From the IMG/VR virus record IMGVR_UViG_3300037847_000151, positions 1-30,596 of that record: 30,596 nt of DNA, one strand, 5' to 3'. The notes under the pieces were generated by a model that saw only the letters and a list, made by a program, of their open reading frames with translations, made no database searches and had not been told where the DNA came from. A program made the position numbers and the translations under genes. This DNA comes from a virus. Below are positions 9,913 to 30,596 of the stretch, piece by piece; the stretch's first letter is position 1, and each line of letters starts with the position of its first letter.

Positions 9913-10147
9913 ACTTCTTATCTATGTGTTTCTTTAAACCCATTCTTGAGAGTTTACGATTCGTACTTGCTTCTAACCAATCTACTGCAACAGCTAAACT
10001 GATCTCATCATTCCTAACCATTTGTGATACAACATCTAAAGCATGTATCTGTTCTTCAATAGGTTTAAGATAACCTTCTACTTCGTCATCAACTTCATAT
10101 CCAAAAGGTATGGTCGATGTTTTTCTTTTTATATATCCTTCTTTCAT
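9848..10147 (-). CDS. Conserved 99-aa phage protein next to terminase
   Basis: A 99-aa charged, mostly helical protein with the N-terminal motif KRKTSTIPFGYEV. Small proteins with this 'IPFGYE' start lie beside terminase genes in other marine podoviruses, as I recall them. The motif faintly recalls the 'PFGY' element of serine recombinases, but no catalytic domain is present. The C-terminal half has a helix-turn-helix-like segment (AVDWLEASTNRKLSRMGLKK). It could help the terminase contact DNA, which is inference. Its ATG overlaps the IscU stop (ATGA), and its end overlaps the terminase start by 65 bases, so all three are coupled. Confidence 0.6.
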   Translation of the reverse strand: MKEGYIKRKTSTIPFGYEVDDEVEGYLKPIEEQIHALDVVSQMVRNDEISLAVAVDWLEASTNRKLSRMGLKKHIDKKYDRQRQEESDRNKFNSILDRF

Positions 10148-10560
10148 AACTGATTGTGCTTTCTATGAGCAGTCTTTGTTTCCCAATCTTCAATAGCTTT
10201 AGCAATACTTTCTTCAGCTAACACACTACAATGTAGTTTGATGGGTGGAAGGTCTAAAGCTTTTGCAATGTCTTTGTCTTTAATTTGTTTAGCTTCTTCG
10301 ACTGTCTTACCTTTTAACATCTCCACAAACATAGTGCTAGATGCGATAGCAGAACCACAACCATAAGTTTTAAACTTAACGTCTTCTATTGTATCTCCGT
10401 TTAGTTTAAGCTGTAGTCTCATTACATCACCACAAGAAGGTGCACCCGTCATACCTGTTGCAACATTAGGGTCTGTTGGATCAAACCTACCCACTGCATG
10501 TTTCTCAGGTTCGTTAAGTACACTTTCAAACCTATCTATGACTTGTTGTGAATAAGCCAT
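10144..10560 (-). CDS. iscU: IscU-type Fe-S cluster scaffold
   Basis: A 138-aa full-length member of the IscU/NifU N-terminal family, which builds [2Fe-2S] and [4Fe-4S] clusters on three Cys ligands and passes them on. All key residues are present: C43 and D45 in GAPSCGDVMRLQ, C68 in YGCGSAIASS, and H110-C111 in KLHCSVLAEE. LPPIK at 104-108 corresponds to the LPPVK motif that the chaperone HscA recognises in bacterial IscU, so host HscA/HscB might act on it. No IscS, HscA or ferredoxin is encoded nearby, so host partners would be needed. It sits inside the packaging operon, coupled on both sides. It is likely captured from a bacterial host; the reason is unknown. Confidence 0.93.
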   Translation of the reverse strand: MAYSQQVIDRFESVLNEPEKHAVGRFDPTDPNVATGMTGAPSCGDVMRLQLKLNGDTIEDVKFKTYGCGSAIASSTMFVEMLKGKTVEEAKQIKDKDIAKALDLPPIKLHCSVLAEESIAKAIEDWETKTAHRKHNQL

Positions 10561-27700: not shown

Positions 27701-28687
27701 ATGAGCTTATTAGGAACACAAAATTATTTTAAACCATTCGAGCATCCTTGGATGTTTGACTACTGGGATTTACAACAACAGATGCATTGGATACCAAACG
27801 ATGTACCTCTAAACACAGATGTAAAAGATTGGAACAACCATCTCACGGATGAAGAACGCAACTTAGTTAAACAAATATTTAGATTGTTTACACAGTCAGA
27901 CGTAGATGTTGGTTCAGCATATATTCATAAGTATATGAAATTGTTCAGAAAACCTGAAGCACAATTAATGATGTCAGCTTTTGCAAACATGGAAGGTATA
28001 CATCAGGTAGCCTACAGTCAACTGTTAGAAACTATTGGTATGCCTGACAAAGAGTACAAAGCATTTGCAGAGTACGAAGAGATGGCTAACAAACATGAAT
28101 ATCTTTTAGACTTCAAACCAACAAGAAAGAACAAACGAGAGATAGCTAAAGCTTTAGCAGTTTACTCTGCATTCACCGAAGGACTGCAGTTGTTTAGTAG
28201 CTTTGCAATCTTGTTAAACTTTCCGAGGTATGGTAAGATGAAAGGTATGGGTCAGATTGTCACGTACTCTATACGTGATGAGTCTTTACATGTTGAAGCT
28301 ATGACTAAACTATTTCGAGAGTTTGTCAAAGAAAATCCTGACATTTGGAAAGATGATCTAAAGAAAGAATTGTATGATATCTGCAGGAAGATGGTAGAAT
28401 TAGAAGATAAGTTTCTTGATTTAGTATTTGAGATGGGTAATCTTGAAGGGCTTACCAAGGATGAAATGTATGCATACAACAGATACATAGCTGATAGAAG
28501 ATTATTACAGTTGGGATTAAAACCAAACTTTAAACAAAAAGATAATCCATTGGAGTGGATTGATGAAGTGATCGGTGTCGAACATCAAAACTTTTTTGAA
28601 GGTAAGGCAACGTCATATATGAAAGCAGGGCTAAGAGGAAATCATGGAAGTTTAACTTTTACGGAATTGCAAAATGAAAAAGAATGA
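27701..28687 (+). CDS. nrdB: Ribonucleoside-diphosphate reductase, class I beta
   Basis: A 328-aa helical-bundle protein that carries the di-iron centre and tyrosyl radical. E98, H101 and Y105 (NMEGIHQVAYS) fit the E-x2-H-x3-Y pattern of two metal ligands and the radical Tyr. E160 (AFTEGLQ), E194 and H197 (RDESLHVE) complete the site, with D67/D69 near the first ligand. The radical Tyr is present, so it belongs to the Tyr-radical subclasses (Ia-like; no NrdI seen). It partners NrdA encoded upstream. The final codons contain the start of the 72-aa gene. Confidence 0.94.
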   Translation: MSLLGTQNYFKPFEHPWMFDYWDLQQQMHWIPNDVPLNTDVKDWNNHLTDEERNLVKQIFRLFTQSDVDVGSAYIHKYMKLFRKPEAQLMMSAFANMEGIHQVAYSQLLETIGMPDKEYKAFAEYEEMANKHEYLLDFKPTRKNKREIAKALAVYSAFTEGLQLFSSFAILLNFPRYGKMKGMGQIVTYSIRDESLHVEAMTKLFREFVKENPDIWKDDLKKELYDICRKMVELEDKFLDLVFEMGNLEGLTKDEMYAYNRYIADRRLLQLGLKPNFKQKDNPLEWIDEVIGVEHQNFFEGKATSYMKAGLRGNHGSLTFTELQNEKE

Positions 28688-28892
28688 AGCCACATTGATT
28701 AGCTACAAATTAGTAATTGATCAAAAAGGAAAAGTATATAGTGAACGTAGTATCAGTGATATTGATGAGATCGAGGAACGATTCAATCCTATCATGTTTA
28801 GTACTTTAAAAACTACCTTACGTACAGCTAGTACTGAACTAGATAAAATACATAACAAAATAGAATCAGACTTAAATTGTAGACTACAGTAG
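28674..28892 (+). CDS. Unknown protein, 72 aa
   Basis: A 72-aa protein starting 14 bases inside nrdB, with a strand-rich N-terminus (TLISYKLVIDQKGKVYSERS) and a helical C-terminus (ASTELDKIHNKIESDLNCRL). It is the last rightward gene. Its end overlaps the convergent cyclase gene by 9 bases and no terminator lies between them. Function unknown. Confidence 0.6.
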   Translation: MKKNEATLISYKLVIDQKGKVYSERSISDIDEIEERFNPIMFSTLKTTLRTASTELDKIHNKIESDLNCRLQ

Positions 28893-30596
28893 TGTGTAAA
28901 TTTTTAATGGTTCTGTCTTGCCTTTTACAGGTATAGGTTTTAAAACTTCAAAAGTATTCGAGCATTTGGATGTGGTCGCTTTAGTAATAAGTAGATCATG
29001 TCCTGCTTCTTTACAAGCTGACTCAGTTCTAGCTGCAGTATTTACAGCATCACCAATAGCAGTATAATCAAACCTTGTTTCACTTCCCATATTACCTATC
29101 ACAGCTTCACCACTATTGATACCAATACCAATAGCAATAGGAGCTATACCCTGTTTATCTAGTTCTTTATTTAGTTCTATCATTCCTTCTTGAATATCTA
29201 AAGCACAGTCTACTGCTTTCTGTTCGTGTCCTTCCAAGTCTAATGGTGCTCCGAAGATAGCCATCATTGCATCACCAATATATTTATCTACCATCCCACC
29301 ATGTTTCTGAACAGCTTGTTGTTGTACAGTCAATGCTTTGTTCATGACATATGTTACATCTTGAGGATCAAGCTTCTCAGACATTGCAGTAAATCCTCTT
29401 ACATCTGTAAATAAAAAAGTACAATATCTTTTCTCACCACCAAGCTTTAAAAGTTCCGGATTACTTTGTAATCTTTTAACTTGGGCAGGGTCTAGATAGT
29501 GTTCAAATTGTTTCTTAATCTGCTGACGAAGTTTAAACTGTGTCCTATAATTTAGATAGAAAGCTACACTTGCAGTCACAAACTGTGAGATCAAAGACCA
29601 CGACACATCTATCAAGATTCCACGCTGAATTAAGTAGTATCCAGAAAACGCTGTTAGAGCTCCGATAAGTCCTGCGAATACCAATCCAAGGGTGATACCA
29701 AATACGTTCAATACAAGCCAAATACAGGCGACTGAGAGGGTAAATATGAGCATCTCTACAGCTAGACTGTAATCAGGTATGTAAGGGCTGTTCTGGACCA
29801 AGATTGACTCTGCTAATGCAGCTTGAATTTTGTGTGGTTCTAGCAATCCAACCGGTGTACTTAGCTGTGGCATTACACCATTAGCTGTGACTCCAACAAT
29901 CACAAATTTACCTTGAACATCCATCTCTTGTAATGTGGTTGAAGGTGTATCAACCCAACTAATCCACTTACGACCTAGTGAATCTACCGGCACAGCAGGA
30001 ATACCTTTGACTCGTATTTCTTCTATACCATTCTGATTGGTTTTAATTATATACGTATCAGAACCTGCTAATACTTTTAAAACTTGTGTACCAAAGGATG
30101 CTACCCAACCATCAGGAGTTCTCATTAACAAAGGTAATCTTCGTACTAATCCATCAACATCTATAGGAGCAGATGCAATACCTTGAGTTGCATTAGACTT
30201 CAACAAGTCTATATTCTCTACAACACCGGATAATTCATAACCACCTATATCATCTCCTAATATAACTGTTCCCTCTGTTCTAGGAAACTCTCCATTGTTA
30301 TATTCAAACATAGACAATATACTTGGATACAGTTTTAATACATCAGCAAACTCTTGATCACCTCCAAATCTATCAGCTTCACTAAACGACATGACATAAC
30401 CTACACCCATAGCTCCACGCTGTAACAACTCCATGTGTATCTCTGCAAGTCTTTGACGAGGTAATGGATAACCTCCTTCTCTTTGTATATCCTCTTCAGT
30501 TATGTCAAGTGTTGTAAACAATCCGTATGGAGATTGTTCTGGAACTAACGCATCAAAGGTTTTAAGTTTGAGTACTTCCAAAGGTAACATATTGAA
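28884..30596 (-). CDS. CHASE2-domain adenylate cyclase, N-terminus cut by window edge
   Basis: The frame is open beyond 30596; an ATG at 30588 is in frame, but the domain is expected to begin earlier with a membrane helix. Numbering from that ATG: CHASE2 sensor 5-265 (FTTLDITEEDI, YPLPRQRLAEI, FVIVGVTA), three membrane helices at about 275-297, 298-321 and 328-347, a HYLDPAQVKRL linker, then a class III cyclase (388-560). Metal Asp D396 (FTDVRGFT) and D440 (YIGDAMMA), substrate Lys K436, D508/T510 (FDYTAIGD), and N517 and R521 (VNTAAR) are all present, so it should be active, most likely making cAMP. It would sit in the host inner membrane. Probably host-derived. Confidence 0.92.
   Translation of the reverse strand, partial: FNMLPLEVLKLKTFDALVPEQSPYGLFTTLDITEEDIQREGGYPLPRQRLAEIHMELLQRGAMGVGYVMSFSEADRFGGDQEFADVLKLYPSILSMFEYNNGEFPRTEGTVILGDDIGGYELSGVVENIDLLKSNATQGIASAPIDVDGLVRRLPLLMRTPDGWVASFGTQVLKVLAGSDTYIIKTNQNGIEEIRVKGIPAVPVDSLGRKWISWVDTPSTTLQEMDVQGKFVIVGVTANGVMPQLSTPVGLLEPHKIQAALAESILVQNSPYIPDYSLAVEMLIFTLSVACIWLVLNVFGITLGLVFAGLIGALTAFSGYYLIQRGILIDVSWSLISQFVTASVAFYLNYRTQFKLRQQIKKQFEHYLDPAQVKRLQSNPELLKLGGEKRYCTFLFTDVRGFTAMSEKLDPQDVTYVMNKALTVQQQAVQKHGGMVDKYIGDAMMAIFGAPLDLEGHEQKAVDCALDIQEGMIELNKELDKQGIAPIAIGIGINSGEAVIGNMGSETRFDYTAIGDAVNTAARTESACKEAGHDLLITKATTSKCSNTFEVLKPIPVKGKTEPLKIYTLL

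Follow-up and report, generated by a model that had tools for sequence, protein, structure and literature searches.

The adenylate cyclase gene at the end of the window (the whole stretch of DNA analyzed here, 30,596 nucleotides, which represents bases 1–30596 of a 34,188-base IMG/VR viral contig) belongs to a phage curli (type VIII secretion, T8SS) cassette, in which it comes last, and is not a lone receptor. The cassette that it closes consists of genes for CsgF, CsgG, a curlin-like protein, FecR, and the cyclase, and on balance we favor a reading in which FecR and the CHASE2 cyclase act as an envelope-sensing pair that is coupled to curli export and makes cAMP. The association of a cyclase with curli and FecR genes is already known from two pelagiphage groups; what we add is a third phage lineage in which the cassette has a stable home beside nrdB and forms a clade of its own, evidence for movement of the whole cassette in one piece, two or more natural events of cyclase loss or gain, which provide matched pairs for testing, and the lack of the obvious cAMP reader in the surveyed phages and SAR11 family.

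The cyclase gene lies on the minus strand at 28884..30596, where ORF analysis, Pfam, and comparison with a 98% identical contig (L002) identify its 3' 568–570 codons. Its ORF of 568 aa (28884–30590, minus strand) is open up to the window edge, and directly beyond this edge the gene continues across a 10-N scaffold gap (contig positions 30597–30606) to its true start codon at contig position ~30633, about 21 residues upstream. The gap removes the first transmembrane helix. In L002, the cyclase is whole (589 aa) and has an N-terminal transmembrane helix ahead of CHASE2; the full-length window cyclase is accordingly predicted to have four transmembrane helices in all, the N-terminal one being taken from L002. 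Within the window, the protein comprises a CHASE2 sensory domain that is predicted to be periplasmic (residues 5–283, 29742..30578, minus strand; Pfam PF05226, E value 4.6e-27, and AlphaFold model), three transmembrane helices recognized from AlphaFold helices and alignment (about residues 275–362, 29505..29768, minus strand) that are immediately followed by the conserved linker KKQFEHYLDP, and a class III nucleotide cyclase domain (residues 389–567, 28890..29426, minus strand; Pfam PF00211 Guanylate_cyc, E value 1.8e-22). The AlphaFold model of the L002 cyclase (pLDDT 88.4, pTM 0.66) consists of CHASE2, three helices of transmembrane length (296–317, 319–343, and 351–383 in L002 numbering), and a cyclase that matches the CyaC and CyaB crystal structures with TM-scores, normalized by target, of at most 0.88; the solved structures nearest to the cyclase domain are those of Cya2, CyaB, and CyaC. 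Pfam and the AlphaFold model, thus, confirm the architecture of CHASE2, three transmembrane helices, and class III cyclase that had been proposed in the initial annotation, and with the N-terminal helix read from L002 the protein has the complete layout of a CHASE2 receptor (N-terminal transmembrane helix, CHASE2, three transmembrane helices, and output domain).

The active site is intact. The two metal-binding aspartates D396 (29403–29405) and D440 (29271–29273) and the substrate lysine K436 (29283–29285), all encoded on the minus strand like the residues that follow, are invariant in 128 phage homologs, the second purine-specifying residue T510 (29061–29063) is Thr in 90, Ser in 37, and Asp in one of them, the transition-state residue N517 (29040–29042) is Asn in all but that of phage Melnitz (127/128), and the transition-state residue R521 (29028–29030) is Arg in every homolog row that reaches this position. 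The protein, therefore, has the two metal Asp, the Lys plus Thr/Ser/Asp, and the Asn plus Arg that define an adenylate-type class III cyclase, and the intact catalytic site that had been read from the window alone holds across the phage homologs. Lys combined with Thr, Ser, or Asp is the adenylate pattern that alignment places in CyaB of P. aeruginosa. The guanylyl cyclase Cya2 is structurally close, but the base-reading positions here are Lys and Thr, and we prefer adenylate over guanylate specificity. The cyclase domain also matches PycC (Pycsar) models; however, these matches extend over the shared cyclase fold only and the neighboring genes are curli genes, and we have provisionally set a Pycsar assignment aside on the fold-level nature of the match. 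For the cyclase half, dN/dS is 0.05–0.10 (eight informative pairs), indicating that the enzyme is under purifying selection. From these features the phage protein is probably a working membrane adenylate cyclase, and its product would be cAMP. In the Melnitz cyclase (L084:8917–10968), the transition-state Asn is replaced by Ser and the purine Thr by Asp, which may alter or abolish its activity.

Beyond the gap, and on the same minus strand as the cyclase, the contig encodes FecR (contig 30630–31745; E value 5.5e-11), a curlin-like protein (contig 31660–32370; weak curlin repeat match), CsgG (contig 32312–33175; E value 1.8e-50), CsgF (contig 33120–33584; E value 1.1e-19), and, at the head of the cassette, a small coiled-coil protein with one transmembrane helix and weak holin-like PHROG matches (contig 33584–33967, equivalent to L082:7584–7967, where L082 is contig 26001–34188, the piece that covers the genes past the window end). 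Because these genes sit past the window end, the curli cassette was missed in the initial annotation. The genes for CsgF, CsgG, curlin, FecR, and adenylate cyclase are adjacent and co-directional, as in a T8SS-FecR-AC cassette, with a curlin match that is weak in the window phage, and in L002 the FecR stop overlaps the cyclase start. Among the 77 cyclase-bearing relative loci that have upstream sequence, the nearest recognized gene before the cyclase is FecR in 52 and a curlin gene in 23 (75/77), and it is on this ground that we regard the cyclase as the terminal member of a phage-borne curli cassette.

We considered, and rejected, that the cassette starts with a histidine kinase gene such as the one reported for the cluster in PMC9599517: no kinase domain was found by Pfam in the small upstream proteins scanned, namely the head protein of the window contig and the upstream genes of L023, L051, L083, and L084. 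The small transmembrane/coiled-coil proteins at this position may be what was called a histidine kinase in PMC9599517. An Rfam scan of seven loci revealed no riboswitch near the cassette; its sole scores were the tmRNA and a glutamine riboswitch of Melnitz, upstream of and apart from the cassette. In a promoter and terminator scan, promoter-like sites were fewer than in shuffles and not informative. By eye, spanin-like and lysozyme-like genes directly follow the cassette in one contig (L087:9928–11451), and in another a DNA-methyltransferase-like gene is apparently inserted between FecR and the cyclase (L088:1694–2857).

A false join of phage and bacterial DNA near position 28890 had been named as a finding that would undo the phage assignment of the gene. 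An assembly chimera, or contamination with bacterial DNA, at the end of the window would fit the 10-N gap at 30597–30606 and a sharp break in identity to L002 at about 28.9–29.0 kb. However, 36 CsgG-anchored contigs with FecR, cyclase, and nrdB have the same convergent nrdB/cyclase join, and it is also present in L002, L004, L005, L006, and L056; the FecR/cyclase join is complete in L002 and L003 where the window contig has its gap. Because dozens of independent viral contigs share the nrdB/cyclase junction, it is not an assembly artifact; the join is real, the gene is phage-encoded, and we give a chimera virtually no chance. Of the 43 nrdB-flanked cassettes with FecR, 36 carry the cyclase.

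The identity break has a different meaning. Between the window contig and L002 the cassette is 92–100% identical, whereas the adjacent nrdA and nrdB are 69–81% identical, and because the change is sharp we conclude that the cassette has been exchanged as a block between phages, with its breakpoint at the very spot where the false join was suspected. The cyclase tree, in which the cyclases of nrd-flanked phages fall into two distinct groups, fits block exchange. A tree built from FecR and CsgG unites the nrd-flanked cassettes in a single 56-row clade (SH-aLRT 85, quick method), which also includes short contigs without an assigned flank.

In the window phage, TerL (64–65%) and PolA (51–53%) are most similar to those of HTVC103P, HTVC104P, and HTVC115P, ahead of all others in INPHARED, and the packaging genes of these three phages are of the HMO-2011 type (PMC8528129). 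Neither HTVC023P nor HTVC027P is among the best 15 matches for TerL or PolA, and the window phage is not placed in the HTVC023P type. These markers place the window phage closest to HTVC103P-type pelagiphages, and it constitutes a third lineage with the curli/cyclase cassette. The earlier description of its genes as T7-like is loose: PolA and a primase-helicase are present, but TerL and PolA have their best counterparts in HTVC103P, HTVC104P, and HTVC115P. A tblastn search of INPHARED revealed no cyclase or CsgG homolog in any of these three phages, and HTVC115P displays a cassette-free site in which nrdB is followed by gp34 and then directly by the late-strand genes; the homolog of gp34 in the window is the small ORF after nrdB (28674..28892, plus strand) that is convergent with the cyclase. 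The GC content of the window phage is 36% versus 30.8–34.0% in its HTVC103P-type relatives, and a related group IV, for which the host is not identified, spans 31.9–44.4% (PMC8528129). Distance and GC content together suggest that the window phage belongs to this looser group IV. Next to the terminase large subunit, we also observed an IscU-like Fe-S cluster scaffold gene (10144–10560, minus strand; TIGR01999, E value 6.3e-47, below the curated cut-off). Four contigs filed in bacterial MAGs (L087 in Pelagibacter MED605, L088 in Neomarinimicrobiota RS350, L089 in Maricaulis IN14, and L093 in Flavobacteriaceae NAT175) also contain the phage cassette, which suggests that viral sequence has contaminated these MAGs.

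Among the 43 nrdB-flanked cassettes with FecR, the cyclase is cleanly absent from seven, in which FecR is followed by a small ORF and then nrdB while the curli genes are kept. The FecR and CsgG tree calls for a minimum of two switches between presence and absence of the cyclase and fits gain as well as loss; by this tree, the cyclase has been lost or gained at least two times while FecR and curli were retained. Its absence from these seven cassettes would also fit an enzyme that is carried as an unused relic of a bacterial module, but the catalytic residues are intact, dN/dS is low, and the other 36 cassettes have retained the gene, and we regard a mere passenger as very improbable. An alphaproteobacterial origin of the cyclase has been published; our scan of genome contigs gave only three clearly cellular homologs, which have 30–32% identity and sit on long branches. 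Two of these (L090 and L092) lie near FecR genes without curli.

As for a reader of the cAMP, the initial annotation had proposed that infection could switch the CRP program of the host. We surveyed the family of SAR11 MAG MED605 (118 genomes), which may not be the host group of the window phage. The cNMP-binding domain PF00027 is encoded in nine of these genomes, and the proteins read, as assigned from their sequences, are one FNR-like protein with an N-terminal Cys, DUF294-like proteins, and ABC-type proteins; no CRP-like receptor was found among them. HTH_Crp_2 scored over the cut-off in a single genome and in the same FNR-like gene, whereas the control domain Response_reg (PF00072), which was used after AsnC proved too patchy as a positive control (16/118), was found in all 118. 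Class III cyclases were found in two of the genomes, in one of them on the phage contig L087 itself; in the other, the only other CsgG match lies on the same contig, about 4 kb apart. Likewise, no cNMP-binding domain was detected in any of 50 phage records, two of which are complete (HTVC008M and Melnitz) and most others fragments; HTVC008M, which was isolated on SAR11, carries the cyclase without a cNMP-binding domain of its own. The missing CRP-like receptors speak against a CRP effect in SAR11, and for the window phage, which may have another host, they limit such an effect without refuting it. That phage cAMP activates a host CRP-family regulon agrees with the adenylate-type active site and with a host that could carry CRP, as the window phage may have a host outside SAR11 and its GC content lies within the broad range of its relatives in PMC8528129; in view of the results from SAR11 and HTVC008M we nevertheless consider this classical hijack unlikely, and the claim as first made is unsupported.

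Alternatively, cAMP could act through a receptor that lacks a cNMP-binding domain, or the cyclase could have another role such as a late drain on ATP or interference with nucleotide defense, possibly connected with the timing of lysis. An active site that is conserved under purifying selection where no canonical receptor was found in phages or SAR11 would agree with this, as would the weak holin matches of the small transmembrane protein at the cassette head, the spanin-like and lysozyme-like neighbors of the L087 cassette, the lysis function proposed for the curli pore of Melnitz (PMC9004378), and the matches to Pycsar cyclase models. However, the Pycsar matches span only the shared cyclase fold and a regulated enzyme coupled to FecR is an odd design for a plain ATP drain, and we hold such roles to be unlikely. 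For SAR11 phages such as HTVC008M in particular, we tentatively raise the possibility that the curli-linked FecR/CHASE2 cyclase makes cAMP without a CRP-like cNMP receptor in host or phage, and that this cAMP works through a receptor not yet described or serves a non-signaling purpose tied to curli export or lysis. With the reader missing, a CRP effect of phage cAMP can no longer simply be assumed and becomes a question that is testable in the HTVC008M/SAR11 isolate system.

The envelope-sensing pair that we favor would work as follows. FecR and the CHASE2 cyclase would have been brought over from bacteria together; their periplasmic domains would react to periplasmic conditions or to curli export, this would free the cytoplasmic cyclase from restraint, and the released enzyme would make cAMP in the infected cell. 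We infer such a pair, which would sense the envelope or curli export and set cAMP, from the recurrent pairing of FecR with CHASE2 proteins in bacteria and from the behavior of CyaD1 of Sinorhizobium meliloti, which yields constitutive cAMP when it lacks CHASE2 (PMC5498481), suggesting that CHASE2 restrains the enzyme. Physical contact between FecR and CHASE2 would be part of this model. The position of FecR or curlin genes ahead of the cyclase in 75 of 77 loci and the overlap of the FecR stop with the cyclase start support the model, as do the conserved catalytic residues, the low dN/dS of the cyclase half, the block exchange of the cassette, and the FecR genes near two of the three cellular homologs. 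Against it stand the seven cassettes that have FecR and curli without a cyclase through at least two separate events, and because of these FecR is not present only to serve the cyclase; the lack of a cNMP-binding domain in the phage records and of a CRP-like one in the SAR11 family; and the loss of the transition-state Asn and purine Thr in Melnitz.

Several known systems resemble parts of this arrangement. For HTVC023P-type podoviruses and for myoviruses, Wittmers et al. 2022 (PMC9599517) described a pelagiphage curli/FecR cluster that includes an adenylate cyclase, and the function can, therefore, not be called little-described; their paper does not deal with CHASE2, CRP, or a receptor. Like the window cassette, that cluster comprises small upstream proteins, CsgF, CsgG, curlin, FecR, sometimes a second curlin, and a variable cyclase in marine phages, whereas the window cassette belongs to an HTVC103P-like lineage and has a fixed site beside nrdB, and the histidine kinase reported upstream in PMC9599517 contrasts with the small proteins scanned here, which show no kinase domain. 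In Pelagibacter phage HTVC008M and Methylophilales phage Melnitz, a full-length homolog (33%) is likewise the last gene of a CsgF-CsgG-curlin-FecR cassette, but these are T4-like myoviruses with a second curlin-type gene before the cyclase, the Melnitz cyclase lacks the catalytic Asn that the window enzyme has, and the authors of the Melnitz study propose a role of the curli pore in lysis (PMC9004378). Among bacteria, most CHASE2 cyclases of Campylobacterota are encoded together with a phosphodiesterase, a TPR protein, and an outer-membrane protein that has a FecR domain (PMC9239204); the CHASE2 adenylate cyclase beside a FecR-domain protein is shared with the window, whereas the phosphodiesterase and TPR protein were not seen in the phage cassette, and curli is not mentioned in the part of that source considered here. 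The BiofilmReg operon of Burkholderia, which controls biofilm, pairs a FecR/LysM periplasmic protein with a CHASE2 histidine kinase (PMC5192318); the pairing of a FecR-domain periplasmic protein with a protein of the layout TM-CHASE2-3TM is the same as here, but the output is a histidine kinase with a response regulator and not a cyclase. S. meliloti CyaD1 is, like the window enzyme, a CHASE2 adenylate cyclase, but it is a cellular enzyme that acts through the cAMP-dependent regulator Clr, of which we found no counterpart here (PMC5498481).
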